From Rhytidiadelphus loreus (taxonomy: Eukaryota; Streptophyta; Bryopsida; Hypnales; Hylocomiaceae): a stretch of 64,000 nucleotides of DNA. The position numbers and the translations under genes are program-made. Every line of letters starts with the position of its first letter. Within the stretch, counting starts at the first letter, position 1. This document shows, piece by piece, positions 1,410 through 42,106 of the stretch. The notes under the pieces are model-generated. The model ran no database searches. It was not told the origin of the DNA and saw nothing but the letters and a program-made list of their open reading frames with translations. The stretch is taken from assembly GCA_947034895.1 (NCBI GenBank), contig OX344762.1:30856760-30920759 (forward strand). The letters run 5' to 3'.

Positions 1410-1907
1410 AATGGCACCTGGAGCGACCATTTTGAAGCTCTGATTGAGAAAGTGTTTGAAACTGGTCGCGCTTAGCTTGTCGTTGAGAGCTTTGAGGTCC
1501 CGGAAATCATAGCCGGCCAATGTGTCAGTCCACGTCAACCACTCTGACGCCACCTCAGCAAATATGGGACCACGTCATCGGCCACGTCATTCGGACGGAG
1601 CCTTTCGTTCGTCGAGTTTGCCGTCCCGGCTTTCCCTCCAATCACCCTCTCATCTGCTCTTCGATTAAGCTAACAAGCTTCAGTGGCAGTGTTGCACAAC
1701 CAGGAGGAGCATGTCGCCAGAGCTGCATGAGTTCTGATTACGGAGGAGCAGGTTTTATAAAAAATAACTCGCTCGTCTCTTTTTTTTCCCAGGAATTTTG
1801 CATCGCAAGCCCTAGTTGCTTGTTGAGCAGGCAATTGTACTACTGTAGTGACGAGTGCTTGGTAGACAAGGAGGTGAATCGGTAGGGATGAAATTAGGGT
1901 TTGGGAG
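1410..1907 (+). promoter_or_regulatory. Promoter/5'UTR segment of RFWD3-like gene (duplicated at about 41.65-42.1 kb)
   Basis: This stretch ends about 50 bases before the RFWD3-like start codon. It contains three CACGTCA boxes (TGACGTG on the other strand) at 1531, 1571 and 1583, a CCAAT box at 1517 and a TATAAAAAA tract at 1756. An inverted copy of the whole stretch lies upstream of the Ataxin-10-like gene. The TGACGTG boxes and the CCAAT box are retained there, while the TATA-like tract is changed. Such boxes are typical binding sites for plant bZIP factors (TGA/ABF class). The function is inferred from position and motif conservation. Confidence 0.65.
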
Positions 1908-4900: not shown

Positions 4901-7900
4901 AAACGAATAAATATGTACGAAGAAATTAGCGAAGATGCCAAGCTTTGCCTTTGCTATATTTCTTGATTCGCAAATCACATCACTTTTCCCGTTTGGTTGA
5001 ATTACAGCATTAGCAACCTGGTTATCATAATGTGTTCAATACAAAGCTCTTTAGTTCGAAGGTCTCCATCAGTGCAATTAGTGGGTTATGTCATTGTCTT
5101 AGAAAAAGAGAAGGACGTTTGTCGACGCTACAATTATGTTGGAGCGCAATACCAGCATTTCTGTGGCAGGATCTTCAGATTACATTACACATGATACAGG
5201 CCAATGAGTTTCTTTGTACTCAACTTGCTTGTGTTTTGTTTGTTTTGGGGCTTTAGGAAGCTGGTCTATTGCGCACTGAAAATGAGCAGCTGAAGAAGCA
5301 GGTAACGATTTGGAAATTATTTCTCGACTTTCATTTAGTTTTTGGCAATACGGTTTTGAGTAATTGGATTTTACTGTGTTTAATTGTGCTCGCATGACGT
5401 TTGTTATGCATAATAGTGGTGGAAGTCTGCTCTTGTATGAGCAAGAGTTACGTTGTTCTTTGACCCATCGAGTACAATTATGATTAACATAATCTGATGC
5501 AAGTAAAAATCTGCGAATTGCAATGGTTTTTATTTGATGAGCATTGATTTGACTGTCTGGAAGAACCGTGCACCTTGTTAGATATGAATTGCTTTCAGCT
5601 GTGGTTTATGTTCGATTTGCTTGCTGAAAAAACACACTCGTTTGCCACTCTTACAGGTTGTCGACCTACGAGAAGAAGTTCGTCGCACTCAGGTTTGTGT
5701 CCTGTCTCCCTGTAATCTTTCTGCTGCATTCACAATCGTTGTGAACAAACATACTCTGGAAGAAGTGCCTTTATTAACTTGAGTCAAGTGGTGTGTAAGA
5801 GGAGTTCTATTAATTTCATCTCAAAGAAGATAAATGTATCAAGTCTGTTGAAATAAATTTGCTTTGATGTGGTTAAGTTAACTTGAACTTCATCGATTCT
5901 CAATTGTGCAGACCCTGTTTAGAGCTTTAGCTGGAGATCAGCGTGACGCTTTTAGTATGTTCAGATCTTCAATTCCGAGGCCCCAGGATCAACGAGGTCG
6001 TCATACTTCTGAGAACAGAAGACACAACATAGCTCACCATGCCTCACGTCCAGCCCCTCATGGGAGTATATTAGATGATCATTTCAGTCTTCAAAGTGGA
6101 CGATCGACTAGGGAAAGGCCACAGGTTGGGCACCTCTTATTCGTGAGAAATACAGAAGAGTTCACGTCACGGTCAAATCCACAAGATCAGCAAAACTGGA
6201 GGCGATTCGATAGCAGGAACTCAGAAGAGAGTCGTGGACTTGAAATGGGATTCGTTTTACAGGTGCAGCTGGTCATGCTCGTTCACTGAAGATTGTATCG
6301 ATTTCTATGTCCCCTGATTGTCTTAACATCTGGTTTTATATTTGAATAATGTTCTCATGAGTATACTATGGCAGGATGAAAAGTCATTGAATGGAGCAAA
6401 GGTCTTTGACATGGACGCTCAGAGTCAATTGCTGCTTGTTTCTGGGAGACCACCGGATTGCGAGACCAGCTCTGGTTTAACAAAAGTTTGCACCTCTATT
6501 CCTGGTCATTTATTTCATCATGTTGACGACTTGCAGTTCGCTTTGGTTCAGGGTAGAAAACAATTTTCCTGTCGCCTGGTGGCAGACTAGAATTTTCAAT
6601 TCTCTGCCCATCTGATCAAACTCTTCTCAACTTAATATCATATTTCTAACTGTTAGGGTTTCACTGACGCCTGATGTTGTTTTGCAGATAAATCTATTGG
6701 CTTTAACCGAAGGTGAATGTATAAGTCTTCCTTTTGGGACGGGTGCTATTCGTGACATCCGCATTGCTCCCTCTGGAACAAGAGCTCCAGGAAGACTAGC
6801 TTTGGTCGCTTCCCTAGGCAAGAAGCTCTCTCTGTTTAGGTATTTTTTTCTGCCATGGCCATCTCATTACTATTTTCATGTACTGTAAACAATTCCTTTA
6901 ATGCTCGATGAGTCATCCTTGAAAACGTTCAATGTTATGCTAATGAATCGAACAGTAACTTGAAGTCTCCTTGTTATTGCCTTGGATGCTTTCTATTTTT
7001 GGAGGATTCTAATTTGTGTTGTGGCAGTTTGGAGAGCAATAATGTTGTCACAACATACACACTTCCGGTGGGACATCATTCAATTCGGCTTCTATCAAAC
7101 GTGTTGTCGTTTTTCTTGCTTCGTTCTCACAGTGGAAGTCGTTAGTGTTTCTCCTTCTTTGTTAGGCATATCCTGGTGCTATTGCGTCTACTCAGGTTAC
7201 TTTTGTTCAAACAGAGTTGTGTGTGCTTCGATATGCTAAGGGTCTTAATTTTTTCTTGGATGCAGAGCCCGTCTTGGGCTTGCTCATGGGACCCATGCGA
7301 TCCTAATCGAGTTTACACCGGCTTGCAGGTCTATGCTTGTCCTAATCTCTTTTGTAGGATCAAGACTTCCTATCAGAAATATAGTGATAGATTATTGCTT
7401 TGTTTGAATACCGCTTATTGTGACCATTAATCCTTGTCTGATGTCTTCTTATTGCGTTGACAGAATGGAACATTGCTTACATTTGATATGCGTCAAACCT
7501 CGTCACCACTAGAGACCCTCAGGGGTCCGAACTCCACTCCTATACATACTTTACAATATGTTCCTGAGATTGGAAGGGCTATTACTCATGACGATGGTAC
7601 TAGCGGGAGCAGGGGCGGGGGACTGCTGAGTGCATCTTCCAACACACTTCTGTTCTGGCCTGGCATCGATCAACCACAAGAAAAGAGGTTAGCGACTCGA
7701 GTTTTTTTTCTAGACGACGAAGTTAACAAATCAATCTTTACAAATATGCTTAAATTACTTGTTATCATTTCTCTTGTCACGATTCACTAATGAGGCTAGT
7801 CAGAGCAGAACAGAAGAACTTTGTTGCTAATTACTACTTGTTTTGCAGACCGGTGTGTATATCTCAACCAGGAGGTTCATCCGTCTGCGTATCAGTCTCC

Positions 7901-8479
7901 TACAATGCTGCGGCCGATGTAATGGTCGCATCTTTTAGACCCAAGCCAACCCCGGTGCCCTTGAATGACGGTGCATCTTCATCCACTCCCTCGACGTATT
8001 CACAGACCGACTGGCCAAGTCAATCCACTTCAAGCGTACTTCCTGAGTCCGCTCCTACAACATCTGTTAGTGTTCATGTCCCGACACACTTTTCCTACGT
8101 CCGAACGTCGAGACCTGCAGCAGACAACAGTACAGCGTCAGGAACGAACAGTACTTCATGGGAGCAACATGGTCCAATGGTGGGGCACAAGAGCCAGGCC
8201 GTGCTATCAAGGACTGCAATTGTGAAAGAATGGACAGATGGGCGATCATCACAACTTGAGGCAGGTGATGCTCGTCAGGGATGTCTGTTTGCATCCGGAG
8301 ACGAGGGTAGCAAATCCGTTTGGCTGTGGGATTTGGCCACGCCGACAGCCAAGCAAATGCTCTCATCGCATCCATCGCCTGTGCTGGACGTTCGAACAGC
8401 GCACATTGCAGGCGTGGACCTCTTGGGGTGCATCAGTGAGCGAACGTTGCAGCTCTATAGGAGATCATTATATAGGTAG
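1954..8479 (+). CDS. RFWD3: RFWD3-like RING/WD40 E3 ubiquitin ligase, 16 exons
   Basis: Exons: 1954-2182, 2710-3081 (or 3096), 3291-3446, 3582-3824, 3925-4045, 4314-4392, 4567-4665, 5257-5301, 5657-5692, 5912-6262, 6375-6485, 6688-6839, 7028-7067, 7266-7328, 7464-7687 and 7849-8479. They join in frame to 983 codons (988 with the later exon-2 end). The order is an acidic, Ser-rich N-terminus, then a RING finger split over exons 5-7 (CPICMEPW, CGHLFGKACIKRWL, CPHC), a short coiled coil (exons 8-9), a variable linker (exon 10) and WD40-like blades (exons 11-16, with motifs such as NGTLLTFDMR and KSVWLWD). Animal RFWD3 ubiquitinates RPA and RAD51 at stalled forks and crosslinks. The same nuclear role here is inferred from architecture. 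The start is the ATG at 1954; the upstream in-frame TTG at 1942 was not used. A CACGTCA-rich promoter precedes it. Confidence 0.9.
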
Positions 8480-13000: not shown

Positions 13001-14209
13001 GCATAGTCAAAGTGGGCGAGGAAGTTGAAGTTGTTGGACTACGCTTGGTATGCATACTATTCATATTTCTCTCATTTTTATTCACTCGAAATATTTACCC
13101 GTTCAGGCTCTGCCAATGAACTCTCTCTGACTTCCTTCATGTATTGCAGGGGCCCAACCTCAAGACAACTGTCACTGGTGTTGAAATGTTCAAGAAACAA
13201 TTGGATCAAGGCCAGGTCCTGTTTTTATTCTAGCCTTCTCATACCTTGCTCGGTCGTTTTTTGTGGCTGAGATGGGTATAGCAGATCTGTTAATCAGACT
13301 TGAGATGGGTGTCTCCAAAGTATTCTGATTGTAATTTTTTTGCTATTTTGTGTTTAATGAACCGAGTTGTCTTATGAAGGTCTCATATTAGGACTTTTAC
13401 AGCTGAGATCTTTTGGACTGTTATTCCCTCGGTATAAACATCTGTTCGAGCAGGGTTATGTTTTGAGTTCAGTACTGAAATCCAGGGGTTTGCTGATACA
13501 GGCTGGAGACAACGTTGGTCTTCTGATTCGTGGACTTAAGCGAGACGAAGTGCAACGTGGTCAGGTGAGATACTATTTTATCACTGTTCAAAGTGGACAT
13601 TTTCTATGACTCACAGGCGGAACCCCAAATTTTTCCTCAAAATCAACTTGATGGTTTTGCAATCTGATTGTGACATTGCAAGGAATCGAATTTGTTGATA
13701 TCATTTCATTGAATTTTATTTTTTTCTGTTTCCCGTGTATTGGTGGTGTGCAGGTCGTGTGCAAACCTGGTACAGTCAAGACGAGCACAAAGTTCGAAGC
13801 AGAGGTTTACATTCTTACCAAGGAAGAGGGAGGCCGACATACCGCTTTCTTTTCTAACTATAGACCCCAGTTCTACTTACGTACTGCTGATGTCACTGGA
13901 AAGGTAGAGCTTCCAGAGCACATCAAGATGGTCATGCCTGGAGACAATTTGACTGCCCAATTCGAACTAATCATTCCTTGCCCCCTTGAACATGGTAAGT
14001 TTCCATCTCCTTGTGAGGCAGAAACTCACTTCGCGAAGCTGACTCTACATTGTAGCTCACTGTTTTGTTTCCTGGAACTCCTTGTTATCCTGTTTAGTAC
14101 TGTTTATTTTCTTACTCTATATGGAGTTTTGTTTGCAGGACAACGCTTTGCTCTTCGAGAAGGAGGAAGGACAGTCGGTGCTGGGGTTATTTCAAAGCTA
14201 GTGTCTTAA
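10081..14209 (+). CDS. TUFM: Mitochondrial translation elongation factor Tu, 12 exons
   Basis: Exons: 10081-10304, 11413-11488, 11623-11715, 11873-11947, 12086-12190, 12346-12436, 12525-12730, 12964-13047, 13150-13215, 13502-13564, 13754-13994 and 14139-14209. They join in frame to 464 codons. The first about 70 residues form an Arg/Ser-rich presequence typical of mitochondrial import (it starts [15 protein letters not shown]). The GTPase motifs are intact: GHVDHGKT (residues 85-92), DCPGH (147-151) and NKVD (202-205). Domains 2 and 3 follow up to [16 protein letters not shown] near the C-terminus. EF-Tu delivers aminoacyl-tRNA to the mitochondrial ribosome. The segment after NKVD (a [20 protein letters not shown] stretch) and the cleavable leader fit the mitochondrial rather than the plastid form. 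All introns checked are GT-AG. It is an ordinary, apparently functional housekeeping gene. Confidence 0.95.
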
Positions 14210-20510: not shown

Positions 20511-23500
20511 ATGAACACAAAATCAATTCATTATACTTCTTCATCGTCAACTTCACTTCTACCTATAGAACAAGTTATACCACCACCAATCCATGCATAT
20601 ATGAATCTTGAAGATTCAAATTTGCATTGTATTGAACATCATTCAAATCTTAATTCATCCTCAAGTCATGAAGAAAAACATGAAATGAGGTTAAATACAA
20701 TGACAAATGAAACAATAGAAAATAATAAAGAGACTCCAAATTCATCAAGAAATTTTATACTTGCAAGTAATACAAATATACCTCGAGAAACAAGTAGTCA
20801 TGTTACGTCATGGCCAAATTCTCATAGAAGAAAAAGAAATCATAATTCAAACCCCTTATATATTACTAAAACTTTGAACAAATCCTTATTTAATGAAGGT
20901 CCGACAAACAAAAGAGCAAAAACTCCTCTTTCTAATTCTCCATCGTCGCCTATCCATCAATCACCAATAGAAACTCGTTCACAATCACCTTTACCAATAC
21001 TACATCAACTCCAAAGTAGCCCTGTTAATGTCTCATATATTAATCAAAGTGAAGATATAATAGATTCAAATGACACATCTTCTATATCTAAAATTACTCT
21101 AAATTTCTCTAATTATGATGAAGACATAAATGACCTTATGGATATTTCAATAGATGATTATGATATTGATGATATATCAATGCAATATACTATGACTACC
21201 CATTCAACATTTCCTCCATTAAATATAGAAGATGTTAACCAATCTTTTAGTGAAGACCTTAATAATGAAAGTAACCTTGAAAATAATTCAATTGAAATGG
21301 GTATTGAGAAAATTGATGAAGTTCAATGGACTTCTTTTGTTGAAATGATGAATGATTCTAGTGAAGGATACACAATTAAAGAAATAAACAATGATGTAGA
21401 AATAACTCAATCAAACTTTGAAGAAACTAACATAATTCAAGGAGATTCCATTGGTACTAAAATGACACACGATGTTATTGAAGAAACAAACAATGAAACT
21501 CCATTGAGTTCTTTACTTGAAATGATGAATGATGATGTGGAACATCCTCCATCTGAAGAAACAAACAATGAAACTCCATTGAATTCTTCAGTTGAAATGA
21601 TGAATGATGACGTAGAACATCCAACATTTGAAGAAACTAATGATAGTACAAAAACAATTCAAAAACATCAAGAAAATTCGTCTAGTCTTCCCAAACAATT
21701 AACAGGTCCCAAACAATTAGTAGGAGTACATCTCAAGAAAAAAAATTGGGTGGCAATATTGCCTAGGTCACTTTATAAGGATGGTAAATATTGGGCCCTT
21801 GGTCAATATGCAACTCCTGAGGCTGCTGCTAGGGTACGAGATTTGGTGGCTCTTAAAATAAAAAAACATGAGGATAACAAATTTGAATTAAACTTTCCTA
21901 TATCTGATTATAGTGATGACTTGAAAGAAATGGAAAAATGGGATCTAAGAGATTATATATGGTCACTTTATAGACAATCGACAGCATTTAAAGCAGGGGA
22001 CACTGGTTTTAAATGTGTTTACCTCATAAAGAATAACAAAAAACCTCAGATGTGGGAAGGAAAAATATGTAATGTTGGTGGAAAATTAAAAGGATACAAA
22101 AATATTGTGCATGTTGATAAAAATCCAAAAAAGGAAATACCCGCTATATTTTGTGATCTTGTAAATTTGCATCTACATGGGTGGGAATATATGACTAATT
22201 ATCGTCCAGGGCTCTATAGTAAATCAGATGTCAAAATTTTTATAGCTTTACTTGAAAAAAAAGAACAAAGTAAAGCATATGAATGGGATCTTATCAAACG
22301 GATATTAGCAGAGCCATTGCCATTTAATAAGTACATAGAGAATCCTACATTTACAAAAGAAAATGAATCTAACATTTCAAGGACTCAAATAGTGCAAGAA
22401 AGTGTTTCTAACGTTGAAATTAATAAAAAAAATCAACACAAATCCATTATTGAAATGAAAAAAGATGCTCGTAAACAAAATGTGAAGAAAACTTTAATCG
22501 GGGTATCCAATGTAAAAAGTAAATATTGGAAAGCGACTATGATTAATCCAAATAGTAGAAACAATGGAAGGTGGACCATTGGACACTATGCAACCATGGA
22601 AGAAGCTGCTAGGGTCCGAGATTTAATAGCTCTAAAATTAAATTATCATAAAAACAACCAAAATTACTATTTTCATTTTCCTATATCTGATTATAATGAT
22701 GACATAAAGGAAATGAAAAATTGGAGTGAGAAGGATTATATTTGGTCATTGAGGAGACAATCTTTGGCCTTTTCTGAAAATGAATCAAGTCTAAGATGTG
22801 TCAAGCCTTCTAATAATGTTAAAGAAAAAAAAAAATATACTGAAAATCTATGGGAAGGATGTGTTATAAACCATGGAGGAAAAGTAAAAGGATTTGAAAG
22901 TACCATAATTATTGGTCCATATGACACTAAAGAAATACCTGCAATATTTTGCGACCTCTTAAATTTGCATATAAAAGGTTGGGATTATTTGACAAATTTC
23001 CGTCCTGGACATTATTCTCAAGCATATGTAGAAAATTTTGTATCCCTTCTTGAAAAACATGAACATGATGAAGCACGTGAATGGAACCTCATCAAACAAA
23101 TATTAGCAGAGCCACTTCCTTTTGTAATTCACATTCAAAATTCTCCAAGTGAAAAGATCATTGAATCAAATACACTCCATTTTGATGACACACAAGCCAA
23201 CAATGATAATATGAATGCACATCTAGTTCAAGATGATGCACATGAAGAAAATAATAATTTGAACCTAGTCATTGACAATTTAACACAAGATAATATGCAA
23301 CCTAAAGAAAATGTGTTGAATATTAGTCTAGATAATTTGAAACAATTTGATAATACTAACCAAAATTTTGTTGCAAAAATGCAACCAAAAGACATAGCTA
23401 AATATTTTATTCAATGTCCATGGGAACAACTTGATGCATTATGGGCATTAGTTAAGAAGCCTATTGATGATTGTGATTTGAACTTTGAAAACTTTCTTCT

Positions 23501-24827
23501 TGGGAAGTATGGAGCTTCAACTTGGTCACCATCTCATATCAAATCCGATGATTTTGAATGCAAACAAAAGAAAGAATACAAGTTCTATTTTCCATGTGTC
23601 ATTGCTACAACTTCCACTGAAGCAAATATACAAAGACGTATTCTTGGCTTAGATTATTTTCAATACAAAATGAATTTGTCTTGTACTTTCATTGAAGATA
23701 TTCAAAAGCAGTGGGTGAATGTTCCAAACATTAGATATTTAGAGATAAGCTTCACTAATATTATTGCCAGTGATGGTGGGCTTCTTGTTGTAAAAGGAAG
23801 AAAACAACCACCTCAATTGAGTGATCAAATGAACCCAATGAATAGTTTGTTAGTATCTAATAACCATTATTGGACAATGAATGATTATATTAAAGCTAAA
23901 AATCAATCTATGATTATTGTGACAAACCCCCTTACTCAAGAAATCAAATTATTACCTCCAATCCCACAAAAAGTATTACATGAAAAAACTGCTCGCTTAA
24001 GCTTCTATGATAGTGAAAGAACAACTTATCGCTTGATTCTGATAGGGGCATGTCATTGTGAGGAAGTGATAGAAGAAAATATAGAAACAATAAAAAGTGT
24101 AGAGCTTGCGTTGGTAGTATATTGCTCTATAAAAAATTCTTGGGTGCATTTTGATAAAGTTTTAAATGCAGCTCCGCCTTCTAAAATATTAGGACGTCCT
24201 AATCTTGTTATTCATAAATATTCTATTTATTATGGTGGTGTACAAATTCACCCACAATTAGGACAAGAACAAATTTCAAAACCAGTTATAATCTATTTCA
24301 ATACACACATTTCTCGAAGACAAAAATTAATCATTGATTTTACTGAAGCAGGAAAGTCTTACTCTGTGAATGTTGTTGAGCCACCCAAACTTGTTCAAAT
24401 AGGCTTCAATGCAAAGATATATGCTGTAACTCGAGAGGCACAATTGCAAAAAGCAACAGACACCTTATTTGTTATTGAAGTTGTTGTAAATACAGATGGT
24501 ACCCCTACAGGTTCTTATAAAGTATTGTCAGAAGGTGTCATGCCCAAGTCAATATACTCATTATTATTTAGAAAGACCAATATAAGTGATGATGAAATCA
24601 CAATGTATAGCAACAACTTGCCTCCATGGGAAGCAATGGGAAGTGCTAGTGATATAGCCATTAAAGTTATTGGCTTTGATCCAATGATTGCTCTATACAA
24701 TGTTCAAGATGGACATTGGAATTATTCTTATTTTCCATATACTGAACCTTTTGAAAAATCCTCCAACTATGAAGCATGGAGATTAATTCCAGGAGTTTAT
24801 GAACCAAGATGGAATGCCATGCCATAG
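20511..24827 (+). CDS. Four AP2-like domains fused to F-box/kelch-like C-terminus, intronless
   Basis: One open frame of 1438 codons runs from the ATG at 20511, twelve bases after an in-frame TTG, to the TAG at 24825. Residues 1-395 are acidic, Asn/Ser-rich and low in complexity, with 25-residue repeats. Two homologous units follow (about 400-610 and 660-870). Each has an AP2 R1-like domain (ATPEAAARVRDLVALK, ATMEEAARVRDLIALK), the ANT/AP2-class linker (NFPISDY, KEM, then SLYRQS or SLRRQS) and an R2-like domain (WEGKICNVGGKLKGY; WEGCVINHGGKVKGF; then AIFCDL, N-L-H and TNYRPGLYS or TNFRPGHYS). The YRG element of R1 is lost, so DNA contacts may differ. Residues about 958-1000 resemble a weak F-box. 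The rest contains kelch/F-box-associated signatures (SDGGLLVVKG, NPLTQEIKLLPPIPQ at 1139). The gene is AT-rich, without introns, and isolated in a gene desert. It could be a DNA-binding ubiquitin-ligase adaptor; that role is inference. Confidence 0.8.
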   Translation: MNTKSIHYTSSSSTSLLPIEQVIPPPIHAYMNLEDSNLHCIEHHSNLNSSSSHEEKHEMRLNTMTNETIENNKETPNSSRNFILASNTNIPRETSSHVTSWPNSHRRKRNHNSNPLYITKTLNKSLFNEGPTNKRAKTPLSNSPSSPIHQSPIETRSQSPLPILHQLQSSPVNVSYINQSEDIIDSNDTSSISKITLNFSNYDEDINDLMDISIDDYDIDDISMQYTMTTHSTFPPLNIEDVNQSFSEDLNNESNLENNSIEMGIEKIDEVQWTSFVEMMNDSSEGYTIKEINNDVEITQSNFEETNIIQGDSIGTKMTHDVIEETNNETPLSSLLEMMNDDVEHPPSEETNNETPLNSSVEMMNDDVEHPTFEETNDSTKTIQKHQENSSSLPKQLTGPKQLVGVHLKKKNWVAILPRSLYKDGKYWALGQYATPEAAARVRDLVALKIKKHEDNKFELNFPISDYSDDLKEMEKWDLRDYIWSLYRQSTAFKAGDTGFKCVYLIKNNKKPQMWEGKICNVGGKLKGYKNIVHVDKNPKKEIPAIFCDLVNLHLHGWEYMTNYRPGLYSKSDVKIFIALLEKKEQSKAYEWDLIKRILAEPLPFNKYIENPTFTKENESNISRTQIVQESVSNVEINKKNQHKSIIEMKKDARKQNVKKTLIGVSNVKSKYWKATMINPNSRNNGRWTIGHYATMEEAARVRDLIALKLNYHKNNQNYYFHFPISDYNDDIKEMKNWSEKDYIWSLRRQSLAFSENESSLRCVKPSNNVKEKKKYTENLWEGCVINHGGKVKGFESTIIIGPYDTKEIPAIFCDLLNLHIKGWDYLTNFRPGHYSQAYVENFVSLLEKHEHDEAREWNLIKQILAEPLPFVIHIQNSPSEKIIESNTLHFDDTQANNDNMNAHLVQDDAHEENNNLNLVIDNLTQDNMQPKENVLNISLDNLKQFDNTNQNFVAKMQPKDIAKYFIQCPWEQLDALWALVKKPIDDCDLNFENFLLGKYGASTWSPSHIKSDDFECKQKKEYKFYFPCVIATTSTEANIQRRILGLDYFQYKMNLSCTFIEDIQKQWVNVPNIRYLEISFTNIIASDGGLLVVKGRKQPPQLSDQMNPMNSLLVSNNHYWTMNDYIKAKNQSMIIVTNPLTQEIKLLPPIPQKVLHEKTARLSFYDSERTTYRLILIGACHCEEVIEENIETIKSVELALVVYCSIKNSWVHFDKVLNAAPPSKILGRPNLVIHKYSIYYGGVQIHPQLGQEQISKPVIIYFNTHISRRQKLIIDFTEAGKSYSVNVVEPPKLVQIGFNAKIYAVTREAQLQKATDTLFVIEVVVNTDGTPTGSYKVLSEGVMPKSIYSLLFRKTNISDDEITMYSNNLPPWEAMGSASDIAIKVIGFDPMIALYNVQDGHWNYSYFPYTEPFEKSSNYEAWRLIPGVYEPRWNAMP
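21480..21629 (+). repeat. 75-bp in-frame tandem repeat inside the AP2 fusion gene
   Basis: Two 75-bp units (21480-21554 and 21555-21629) encode about 25 residues each, starting EETNNETPL and containing EMMNDDVEHP. A third partial unit begins at 21630. The length is a multiple of three, so changes in copy number keep the frame. The encoded segment is acidic and probably disordered. Confidence 0.85.
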
Positions 24828-25866
24828 ATAATAATGGATAACCCCCCAAAGTTCAAACAAAGAAGGAAAAGGGGGGAGACAATGGCCATGACTTTTCTAT
24901 TTCAAAAATTGCTAATTTTCATGGAATAAAAGTCTAATACTAAATTACAACTATAAGATCTACTTGACATTCTTTGTAAGTTCAAAAATTGTCATACACT
25001 CAAAATTAGCAACACAACATTCTTCGAAAACCAAGGGGCATAGAAATTCTTGAAAAAGTTTACACCCCTAATGTATACATAGATTCATAAGTACACAAAT
25101 GATACACATATGGATACAAATTTCCATATACAACCAAACTTCCCTTAATACATGAGAATGGTGGAAAGTAGTTATTAGCTATATGCACATAGAGAAACTC
25201 AAGTGCCAAAGGCCAATTATTTAAACATGCTCATTTTGTACAATAATTGTGTTTGATTGGTTGCTCATCTAAGAAAGTCAATGATATTTGACATAATCAG
25301 CTCCATTGATGGTTTGTGTAATAGACTTTATGCACATAAGGAGTATGCAAATAATGAACTATAGTTAGTTATGCAAGTAGCGAATTTGCATTATAAGAGG
25401 TTTCATTATATATGGATACAAATATGGTTAAATATCTTATATCTTTGGTTGAGCTTTTTTAGTGATCCCTATATATCATCCATGAAAAATTTGGAAAACT
25501 TTTTTAAAGTACATATCCGATTTTTTATTTTAAATTGACCTTTTGTATTTCATTATTTTAGTGACATGTACCCCTCCTTTGGATTTGAAAAATCAACTCT
25601 CATTGGAGAATATTGAGGTCATGAGCTAACTATCCCCTCATATCACTATCATGTATGACTTGTGAGGGTCAAGGTGAGGGGGTTATTTACCGTCGACTAC
25701 AAGTATGTGGAGGTGGGGAGGCTAGTTTGGAAGGTTTGGAGCACTAAATAGGCTTTGGGGGGACTTTTAGACTTTAGGGACTTGACTTTGGGCCTTAGTA
25801 GTACATCTTTTGACACCTCATTTGAACCCCCTAAAGCCCATCCCTTTCATGTATGTCTTTGGAAAC
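24828..25866. other. 3' flank of AP2 fusion gene, no gene seen
   Basis: It begins with a purine-rich tract (24864-24888) and continues as AT-rich DNA. At about 25640-25860 the composition becomes richer in G on this strand, without a recognisable ORF. Confidence 0.5.
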
Positions 25867-25869
25867 TCA

Positions 25870-26086
25870 CACTAAAAGAAACCCGCGTTTTAGGTGATGT
25901 TTTGTAATTTTTTTAAACGGATTTTAGGTGACGTTCATTGCAACAAGCCCATGTTCATATGTCAACAATATGTCCAACATAACATCAATGTTGACATAAA
26001 AACATGGGCTTGTTGCAATGAATGTCACCTAAAATCCGTTTAAAAAAATTACAAAACATCACCTAAAACATGGGTTTCTTATAGTG
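25870..26086. mobile_element. CACTA-type MITE, 217 bp, TSD TCA
   Basis: The termini are CACTAAAAGAAACCC and, on the other strand, CACTATAAGAAACCC. The arms pair almost perfectly for about 100 bp: the TTTTAGGTGATGTTTTG, AAACGGATTTTAGGTGAC and CATTGCAACAAGCCCATG blocks recur on both strands, with a few mismatches. The flanking TCA at 25867-25869 and 26087-26089 is a 3-bp target duplication. It is non-coding and non-autonomous. Confidence 0.92.
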
Positions 26087-26089
26087 TCA

Positions 26090-33287: not shown

Positions 33288-36200
33288 CTATGCCTCCATA
33301 GGTTCTGGCCCTGAGTCTGTGCTTACAGAAGATGTATCAGTAGACATTGCAACAGGAACAGTAGCAGATGCCGTCACAGAGTTGAATAACGTATCTTTGA
33401 TGACCTGCAGAAAGCGTCATTCAAACTTCAGTTAGATGGTTCCAGATCTAGAAGAAATTGAGGGAGTGTCCTGGTGAGTAATTCAGAATAGACTTATCAA
33501 AGGAGCATTTTCTTTTATCAACTTGCTGTATAAATTCCCTAGCACATCAAGGTCTAGCAAAGATTTAGCGCTATCATTTTAGAGGATGAATCTCGGAAAT
33601 AGGATATGAAAAAAAGAGTCATATTTCACCTGCGACATGAGCCCGTGCAGCTGCTCCACAGTGATCTTGGAACTGTCACGTGAAATCTTTGCAAGCTGTG
33701 ACTCTTCCTGCAGAGGTGATTCCAGTAAATGTGTTTAGTGTGAAAAGCACATAAAGCATGTGGACAATGAAAGTAATCGAGAAAAAGATCTTACAGTAAA
33801 CTCCAGCCAAGCACAAAAAACCAAATCAATATTCAAATAACAAATGGATGGGGCTCTGGATACGCTTTGACTTGAAAGCATGCATCCACCAAGCCCAAAA
33901 GATTGGGTAATTGAGCACCAATGAGCCATACCTCCTTTTTCTTTTGCACTGGCATGAAGAACCCACCCATGCGCCCTGAATGAGCGAGCTGGCTCTCAGC
34001 CTGCTCCAGTTTCTCAGCTGAAAAACATCACGTTGTCGTGAACGAAAGTTAAAGGAAATTACAAAATGTGGGTCTCAAAGTACATGTCAAGTAATAACAT
34101 TAAAGACAAGTCAGTCACGCAGTAATGACACATGTAAAATATCATCTAAAATTGATGACTCAGCACAGATTTGATTCAAACAACTAGAAGTAACAACAAT
34201 CACACGAATTGTTAGTGCAAATAATCAGTGTCTGTAATTCTTAGATTTCCATGAATGATTGAATCCTTCAATTTGCCACCAAGGAAATGAGTTCTTATCT
34301 GCGGTGAAAGCAAATGATTAGGTTGTGAATATTAACTCTTTATAATTAGGCTCACACGAACTACACGACTACATCAATTGTCGTGTAGTTCACTATGCAC
34401 TACAGAATGAAAATAGTAGCCTTACAGCAACTCACCCAGATCGGCCACTTGTCCAGCCACATATTCCCGATTGCCTAGCAAAGGTGAAGACGAAAGAGTA
34501 TTGACCCAATATTTGTTCCAGAGAAGGTCAAGGAGGTGGGAATCCAATGATGATTTGAAATATGTTATGTCAAGAGAATAATACTGCAATCACAAACAGA
34601 ACCTCCATGGAATAAGTCCCTTCTTCAGGACAACTCTAAATCAAAATGATACTAGAATAAGGCAAAGCGCAAATGATCCAAAGCAGAAAACGATAAGAAC
34701 TGCAACGCTACAAACTGGGTCCAGATAGATACAAACGTCTCACATATATGTGGGGAATAAAGCACGCAAAATGAAATGAATAGTTAAGACTGTCACCGAT
34801 TTATAATGGACACCAAAATCCTCAATTTTGTTTAAAGGGATGGTTTGATACTCAGATGGGGGCTCGTCCGGTGGCTTGTACCCCTGGGGATAGGTGCGGA
34901 ATGCCCCAATTTCAACTTTTCCAGCGGACACAGTGCGTGTTGGATCGATAACCACAGCCAAAAAGGGCTCCTGATAAGTTTGGTTCAGCATCTGGGTAGA
35001 TACATCAATGCCTGAGAGCCAACATCCATAACCAGGATGCGAATGATACCAGCCTACCACATTTTCTAGCCTCCCCACCTGCATGATGTATGTGATGTCA
35101 ATATGCCTTCACCACTCTTGAAGGAAATATTTGTTTTAAAGAGTCATTGCTCCACATGTTCAAAAAAAGACAATGAGAGAGAGAAGAAAATGCATCCAAG
35201 CGAGATGAACCACCTGTTTGTTCGTCTGAGAATACTGAACCATGTACTCATAGGCATCCGCTTGAGCATTCACCCGAGTCTCTGTACCCTCTACTGGCAA
35301 AGCAAATGCATCCATTATTATTATAGTGTCGCCGTCCGTTTTACCCTGCATCAATCCCATCACTTCAATAGTGCCACCTGACCGTGAATGAACCACCATC
35401 TGCGCAGGAGTATACGAGCAAGCCTCAGTATAGTAAACCACGCCTCCTAAAAAGGAATGGTCAAAGCGACATGAACAGAGGACCATTTCAAATCGACGAT
35501 AGTGCAGTTGTCGATGCAGATGCATCACAAATCTGCGTCACAAAATATACTCTTATACTCCCTTTGGATTAATATATTGACGTGAAAAAACGGTTCATGT
35601 ATCCTTTTGTTCCAACTTTCACTTGTTCACAGGACAGGAACCCCCAACCGTGAGTGTCCGCACCTGACCATTTGAACAGCCTTGATATGTAGTTGTATAC
35701 TAAGAAGCTAAAAGTGGGATGCACAAGCTAGAAAGTCACATATTTTCAACTATGGCTAACGAGAAAAAAAAATTTAACTATGCAGGTGTCGCACTAGAAG
35801 AATGAAGCCTATACTCGAAGACTACTAGAACAGTCAGGTACCAGGCGATCAATCCAAATTGCCAATACAGAAAGGCTCTGAAACAGTTTTGCGTGGTCGT
35901 CATAATCAACAGCAACTGATTCTCCTAAATGACAGTTAAAAAAATATTCAAACTACGGATCCAGGAAAAGCAAAGAGCAGCTATCAAAGAAGAGAACACA
36001 CTACCAATTTGGCACGCGCAGCTAGAAGGATATATCATTAACACGCCAGCTAAGGATCCACACTCACATGGACATGTAACCCTAATTAGGGCCACGATTT
36101 CACCTCCAAACCAAAAATCCAGAAAGAGCTAAGGAAAAAAATCTAAACTGCAGAGACACAGAATGAGGATTTACAAATGATGAGCGGGGATCGGACCTTG

Positions 36201-39398: not shown

Positions 39399-41239
39399 CT
39401 ACATAAACTCATCGCTGGCTGGATTGTCTGTACTAGGTGCGACATTCACAAGCCGTGGCCGTCCAGTCTCTGGGTTGATCTCGACAGTCATACCTGCATC
39501 TCTGAGTCTGGAGTCTGGAACAGCGGACCTGATTTCTAAATCAGCCAATTCACTTTGATTCGCACTATTCCCTTCCAACAGGTTGCGAATGGCCCATAAA
39601 CCCCACTCCCGCAAGAAAGGATTGTTCGTATCAGGTATGCACTGTTGCAAGACCAACAAGAGGCCACCATGTTCTCTAACTGAATCTTGTATTAAGAAGC
39701 TTCTGTGACTGGCATTGGCAATCACAGCAACTATGTCTCGCCGGTATCCTGTGTAGACATCTCTCCTAGGAAAACGTTTGAAATCACTTGATGTTGAAGA
39801 AGATTGCTGCTCTGAATCAGTAGTGCTGGTATCGTTCAAGTGGCTTCTTGAACCGTTCGTGTCGATGTCTTGAGTTGATCTGGGAGTGGTTTTGGTGCTA
39901 TCGGGAGGGCTGAGAGCACGTAGAAGATCCAGCAATAAGGGGATCAAACCACTCGAGGCAAACTTGGGAAGCAGAACTGACCTCTTTTCGTCCAAAACAC
40001 AGAGTATTCTTGCCATTGAGAGCGAGAGACCCAAAACATCAGCCACTGGTGACAGTGTTGGCAGATGCAGAACGCATAGGTTTGTGGAGGCAGCACACTC
40101 AGCAGCAGACCTAATGATGTCAATTAAAAAGGAAGCCGATGTCGAAGGCATAGAGATGTAGCGATGAGGGTCTGCCGATGGGTCATCACTATGCTTTTCT
40201 TCCTCTTGAGTACTTAACGCTGCATTCAAAACGTCAAGTAAGGATGCTTGCTCCTTGGTGAACGATGTCCCCTTTAAGCATGAGCAAACGTCAACGTTGG
40301 CAGGTGTTTGCGAGGAACTATTCCTGTTCGTTCCGGTATCGCCCAGTTCACAGAAAAGAGCAGGGAAACAAGGGGTTGCAAAGCATAGGCGAGGAAGCAG
40401 AAACTCCAACCATTCATTTGGCACAGCATCTACAACAACCCCCGCACCTGAAAGAAGACAAATTTAGAAATTAAATTAGTGGCTTTAGTGTGCAGAAAAT
40501 TTATGCAGGAAACAATGTTGCTGGTCAAAGATATACGGTCACAAAGTTAGAATGTGACTTTACCCCTGTTTAGTAGCCATGCTACGACAGAGGCCCCCTT
40601 GCCTTCTGACAATTCCGTGCACCGGCTGTCGTTGTCTCTACAACAAGTATAGATTACCATGCACAAGGGCCCTTGTACCTTCTCATTTGAAACCTTAGCC
40701 ACAATCTCAAAAACTGACGGAAAGAAACGCTTCCAAATTCTTGCCTGACTCAATTCACCAAGACCCGCTACGTTCCCCAGCAGCTGAAGAACCATCTGCA
40801 AGTTTTCAATCACTGAACTCCGCACAATTGCCTCGGCTGGAGACTCGCCATTCTCAAAAGAGTCACTATGAGGGGCAGAACATTCTTGAGCTAAAATCTC
40901 TAACACTGGAGCAATAGCTTCCACGCCATCCAAAGCTACCAGCGCCTCCTGATTTACGGGATTCCCGGCACACAAATTGCGAAGGATTTTTACGTACAAA
41001 TTGAACGATCTAAAGCTCCAATACGTTTCATACAAATCCTGGCGGGCCCTAGGAAATACAGCACCGGACAAAGAAAGAAGAGTAGGAACTGCCTCCGCTA
41101 GAGCGAGCGTCTGTCTTCCATCACCCGACCTCGCAATGTCTACCAAACATTGAAGCTTCGACTCAAACTCGATCCGATTCGTTACTCGGCCTTCCGAAAC
41201 GAAGCGACTCAGTGTGTGAAGGATCTCCATTTCCACCAT
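39399..41239 (-). CDS. ATXN10: Ataxin-10-like armadillo-repeat protein, 2 exons
   Basis: Exon 1 is 41239-40564 and exon 2 is 40447-39399; joined in frame they give 574 codons. The protein is alpha-helical with armadillo-like repeats. The C-terminus carries the conserved Ataxin-10 domain, with REWGLWAIRNLLEGNSANQ and ending ETGRPRLVNV. Ataxin-10 is a cytosolic scaffold. In animals it is linked to cytokinesis and neuronal survival; in plants its role is poorly defined. The ATG at 41239 was chosen because the longer frame starts with TTG. A further upstream exon cannot be excluded. The middle (about residues 250-350) is Ser/Asn-rich and variable. Its upstream region is an inverted copy of the RFWD3-like promoter segment. 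Confidence 0.9.
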
Positions 41240-41649: not shown

Positions 41650-42106
41650 GGCCTCCCAAACCCTAATTCCATCCCTACCGATTCACCTCCGTGTCTACCA
41701 CTACTACGGTTCACTCATCACTACAGTAGTACAATTTACTTGCCTGCTGAACAAGCAGCTAGGGCTTGCGATGCAAAATTCCTGGGAGAAAAAAGAGACG
41801 AGCGAGTTATTAATTTTGAAACCTGCTCCTTCGTAATCAGAACTCATGCAGCTCTGGCGACATGCTCCTCCTGGTTGTGCAACACTGCCACTGAAGCTTG
41901 TGAGCTTAATCGAAGAGCAGAAGAGAAGGGAAAGCCGGAACGGCAAACTCGACGAACGAAAGGCTCCGTCCGGATGACGTGGCCGATGACGTGGTCCCAG
42001 TTTTGCTGAGGTGGCGTCAGAGTGGTTGACGTGGACTGACACATTGGCCGGCTATAGCGGACTCTGATTTCCGGGACCTCAAAGAGGCAAAGCTCTCGAC
42101 AACAAG
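41650..42106 (-). promoter_or_regulatory. Promoter segment of Ataxin-10-like gene, inverted copy of 1410-1907
   Basis: Read on the minus strand, this follows 1410-1907 closely with small indels, from the TTAA target site to the motif AATTAGGGTTTGGGAGG. TGACGTG boxes at 41975, 41987 and 42027 and ATTGG (CCAAT) at 42042 are retained. The TATAAAAAA of the other copy is replaced by a different A/T tract. It lies about 400 bp upstream of the Ataxin-10-like start, in the same orientation to its gene as the copy before RFWD3. It contains decayed versions of the same short ORF, so coding is unlikely. Confidence 0.7.

Follow-up and report, generated by a model that had tools for sequence, protein, structure and literature searches.

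The 64,000-nucleotide window of the moss Rhytidiadelphus loreus analysed here (contig OX344762.1, positions 30,856,760 to 30,920,759) contains a 1438-codon open frame whose product, judging from alignments and structural models, very probably combines AP2 domains with a beta-propeller. Other proteins share this join of an AP2 pair with a propeller, and a later duplication within the window gene has very probably raised its number of AP2 domains to four. The component parts are known; the family that unites an ANT/WRI1-type pair with a beta-propeller is apparently undescribed. The ATG frame (20511-24827, plus strand) is uninterrupted by stops, and its length, already pointed out in an earlier note made from the letters of this DNA, is confirmed as exceptional: in 30 simulated sequences of 64 kb that matched the trinucleotide make-up of the open reading frame (ORF) itself, the longest stop-free run was at most 187 codons, with a mean of 145. 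The guanine-cytosine (GC) fractions at codon positions 1, 2 and 3 are 0.42, 0.32 and 0.21, as expected of a gene within AT-rich DNA.

AP2 units and propeller in one frame

The protein carries two homologous units, at about residues 401-605 and 660-871, whose alignment (E 1e-76) shows identity in 108 of 218 columns. In each, R1-like and R2-like parts of AP2 type flank a linker that contains the elements FPISDY, EM and DYIWSL.RQS.AF. The claims of the earlier note that the pair was duplicated, and that four AP2-type domains share one frame with a propeller half, are borne out by alignment, profile and model. In particular, the AP2 fold was modelled in unit 2, the linker and R2 were recognized by profile, and unit 1 is assigned through its 50% identity to unit 2. 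Structure prediction, one of the checks that the earlier note had proposed, modelled both this fold and the propeller. Another was a search with AP2, F-box, FBA and kelch models: Pfam AP2 matched two stretches at E 2.9e-05 with a score of 24.7 bits, short of the curated threshold of 33.3 bits; for the kelch, FBA and F-box families, the window protein had no hit up to E 10. The features of the gene are as follows, all on the plus strand.

20511..24827, plus: whole open frame, 1438 amino acids, no intron in frame (the term intronless applies to the window gene alone)
20850..21008, plus: N-terminal motif that contains KRAK and SP/TP sites (residues 114-166); the four full-length members agree at 21 of its 53 positions
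21479..21628, plus: 75-nucleotide tandem duplication, two copies 89% alike, in the disordered acidic N-terminal part
21711..21911, plus: unit 1 AP2 R1-like domain (residues 401-467); Pfam AP2 E 0.02 for the excised unit, alignment and profile
21912..22001, plus: unit 1 R1-R2 linker (residues 468-497); gap-free alignment to the linker of the cotton double-AP2 protein
22002..22217, plus: unit 1 AP2 R2-like domain (residues 498-569), then a conserved tail to 605
22488..22694, plus: unit 2 AP2 R1-like domain (residues 660-728); Pfam AP2 at residues 664-711, model
22695..22784, plus: unit 2 R1-R2 linker (residues 729-758)
22785..23015, plus: unit 2 AP2 R2-like domain (residues 759-835), then a conserved tail to 871; model
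23376..23540, plus: helical stretch preceding the propeller (residues 956-1010), the expected F-box place; low-confidence helices
23691..24824, plus: beta-propeller part (residues 1061-1438); model, and model of the relative P0009
24925..24930, plus: AATAAA, possible polyadenylation signal

The C-terminal half contains the motifs NPLTQEIKLLPP and SDGGLL. A propeller fold was modelled, with middling confidence, both here and in P0009, a standalone relative, and the propeller is probably of the kelch kind. When the C half was compared with PDB sequences, the best E value was at chance level (0.27). The F-box claimed by the earlier note is not supported, as no F-box model or solved F-box structure was matched: Pfam and PDB searches of the window protein and its relatives gave none at E up to 10, while fold searches hardly covered that part, and a very degenerate F-box may have escaped them. 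The best PDB match of the helical stretch (E 0.24) was to irrelevant proteins, and the structural match tables listed no recognized F-box chain, which carries no weight against an F-box. Matches to propeller-type F-box families were found in relatives, all weak and below curated cut-offs (P0004, 0.0096; one of four C halves, 0.0024; P0009, 0.061).

Across the four full-length members, 92 of 378 positions are invariant in the propeller part, 44 of 230 in unit 2 and six of 55 in the helical stretch; unit 1 scores 0 only because the alignment places the one unit of each relative against unit 2. The N-terminal motif at residues 114-166, on which the earlier note is silent, is the best-conserved block of the protein and its family and has no match in Pfam or PDB. 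The rest of the N-terminus has invariant positions at 5/113 and 6/228.

Relatives and order of events

With residues 395-1438 as the query, three proteins were found among 6029 candidates: P0002 (1106 amino acids, 42% identity over 76%), P0003 (1218 amino acids, 40% over 74%) and P0004 (1186 amino acids, 31% over 74%). All of them carry the N-terminal motif, a single AP2 pair with its following tail, and the C half. The recurrence of the join in these relatives suggests a genuine gene family. A profile of the C half found four more proteins among 3925 candidates. P0006, the closest copy, is 88% identical over 62% and lies on a 1138-base Joint Genome Institute (JGI) contig; P0007 (48% over 99%, 2.3-kb contig) begins inside an AP2 R2 domain and is thus also a join. 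P0008 (36% over 85%) shows no AP2 part in the sequence at hand. P0009, the hypothetical protein M758_11G121600 of the moss Ceratodon purpureus (475 amino acids), matches at 29% over 99% of the C half, and Pfam finds no AP2 in it. A profile of the whole alignment retrieved only P0003 and the cotton protein P0005 among the 7985 candidates scored, and 58 and 82 pattern stretches from viral and prokaryote contigs, respectively, yielded no relatives. Ordinary annotation can overlook such a family: Pfam gives nothing for P0002 and P0003, and its AP2 scores for the window protein and P0004 stay under the cut-off, although P0004 bears a precomputed AP2 label.

The join seems to predate the duplication, because P0002, P0003 and P0004 have a single AP2 pair with the same C half. 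By sequence comparison, the second pair is a within-gene duplication, present among full-length members only in the window gene; the sequences of P0006 and P0007 do not extend far enough to tell one pair from two. In FastTree trees, the two window units split from the rest with a support of 0.864 (six rows including cotton, 215 columns), and the joined proteins split from P0008 and P0009 with a support of 0.987 (eight rows, 471 columns, P0006 partial). One join followed by pair duplication on the branch of the window gene fits these trees; alternatively, P0008 and P0009 may have lost their AP2 part. The earlier note had proposed that a retroposed, doubled AP2 gene joined a kelch gene. The duplication stands but its place in that order probably does not, as single-pair relatives sharing the C half argue against an already doubled partner.

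Possible functions and rival readings

As a mechanism, a nuclear adaptor has about an even chance of being correct. We infer nuclear location, targeting to DNA or to AP2 partners, and a partner-binding propeller: the AP2 units, with R1 devoid of the YRG arginine and R2 bearing a basic residue, would place the protein on DNA or on AP2-type partners, and the propeller would bind another protein and bring it to the place selected by AP2. The conserved N-terminal motif, with its KRAK and SP/TP sites, would act in import into the nucleus or in regulation by kinases.

Some observations weigh against the proposed architecture and its use. The YRG element, whose arginine is important in AP2 domains, is lost from R1 of both units (LVG and LIG), so that DNA binding may be gone. 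The model of the window protein has a mean predicted local distance difference test (pLDDT) score of 60.6 and a predicted template modelling (pTM) score of 0.45, with low to middling confidence in the C half, and in the fold search with the P0009 model kelch and other propeller types were nearly tied. Moreover, P0006 departs from the window frame near 24635, and its terminal residues match the second frame of the window there (24612-24660), which suggests that it carries a short deletion, real or from assembly.

The first of these points also favours a scaffold that is silent on DNA, in which the AP2 folds would make only protein contacts together with the propeller, for example by pairing or competing with AP2 factors. 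The AP2 matches under the Pfam cut-off and the insertions in R2 of both window units relative to cotton point the same way. However, the AP2 fold and linker are retained, and the YRG position of R2 (FKC and LRC in the window protein) keeps a basic residue in five of five aligned units, so that the absence of YRG stated in the earlier note holds for R1 and not for this residue of R2. Overall, the scaffold is somewhat unlikely. A chromatin-aimed ubiquitin-ligase adaptor, with a degenerate F-box docked on SKP1 and the target selected by the AP2 pairs or the propeller, would be consistent with the helices that precede the propeller and with the relatives' weak resemblance to plant F-box propellers; the missing F-box match and the weak conservation of the helical stretch make it unlikely. 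It is very unlikely that the gene is a copy in decay or without function that has not yet lost its open frame. The early end of P0006 in a shifted frame and the very AT-rich surroundings would agree with decay, but the window frame is intact, the architecture is open in three distant relatives, and both units keep most residues invariant in the family (P0002, P0003 and P0004 agree at 53 positions, of which 47 are retained in unit 1 and 45 in unit 2).

Surroundings, known systems and meaning

Outside the locus, tblastn found no further copies of the gene in the window at E up to 0.1 (one chance match had E 0.66); scans of the window with Rfam and of the protein with NCBIfam gave no match. A G-rich purine run 3' of the stop codon (about 24866-24880) resembled a polypurine tract, and carriage by a long terminal repeat (LTR) element was considered and rejected, there being no long direct-repeat pair in 12000-34000. 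An inverted repeat of 99 nucleotides (25869-26087, 94% complementary, 21-nucleotide spacer), perhaps a small hairpin element, lies roughly 1 kb beyond the 3' end of the gene. A translated stretch common to two ORFs, 1520-1885 (plus strand) and 41704-42042 (minus strand), suggests a dispersed repeat. By their Pfam matches, the frames around the gene look plant-like: those at 7790-8479, 13670-14209, 34740-35084 and 39399-40424 gave hits to the families RFWD3 WD40 (under the cut-off), EF-Tu domain 3, JAB/MPN and ataxin-10.

Double-AP2 factors of the ANT/AIL/WRI1 class (WRINKLED1, PDB 7wq5; cotton P0005) share R1, a linker of equal length, R2 and the fold with the window protein, which differs in its R1 without YRG, its two pairs, the propeller half that follows and the lack of an intron in frame. 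The propeller fold in the P0009 model is like that of the kelch proteins KBTBD4, KLHL7 and Keap1 and of plant ESP and TFP, which we take to be kelch proteins; in contrast, the window protein has no Pfam kelch match and no BTB domain was matched. The plant F-box/propeller families KIB1-4 (PF03478) and At3g26010-like (PF24750), which are the ones weakly matched by relatives, have no match in the window protein. P0009 is homologous to the entire C half but lacks the AP2 part. For proteins of rhubarb, bean and apicomplexans, AP2 domain numbers of two to four, or of one to four, are reported, and the passages concerned mention neither kelch nor F-box (PMC13158899, PMC6525893, PMC6631176); in a passage on NLR fusions, kelch and AP2 occur in different rows (PMC4759884). 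Having more than two AP2 domains is thus no novelty in itself. The earlier note knew of no four-AP2 protein with an F-box/kelch region, and that claim survives for the join, of which no description was found among the matches listed in the open-licence literature.

Among land plants, a conserved join of an ANT/WRI1-plan protein with a beta-propeller in which the AP2 pair was later doubled would represent a new domain architecture. Such a case would also serve as a natural experiment on the way in which a DNA-binding domain turns into an adaptor and on whether DNA binding survives. It is distinctly unlikely, though conceivable, that these proteins are chromatin-directed adaptors of the moss lineage: DNA sites would be chosen by a single AP2 pair or by two, and the propeller, perhaps with a cryptic F-box, would bring a ubiquitin ligase or another effector to them. 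If true, a single polypeptide would both read DNA and recruit the machinery of destruction.
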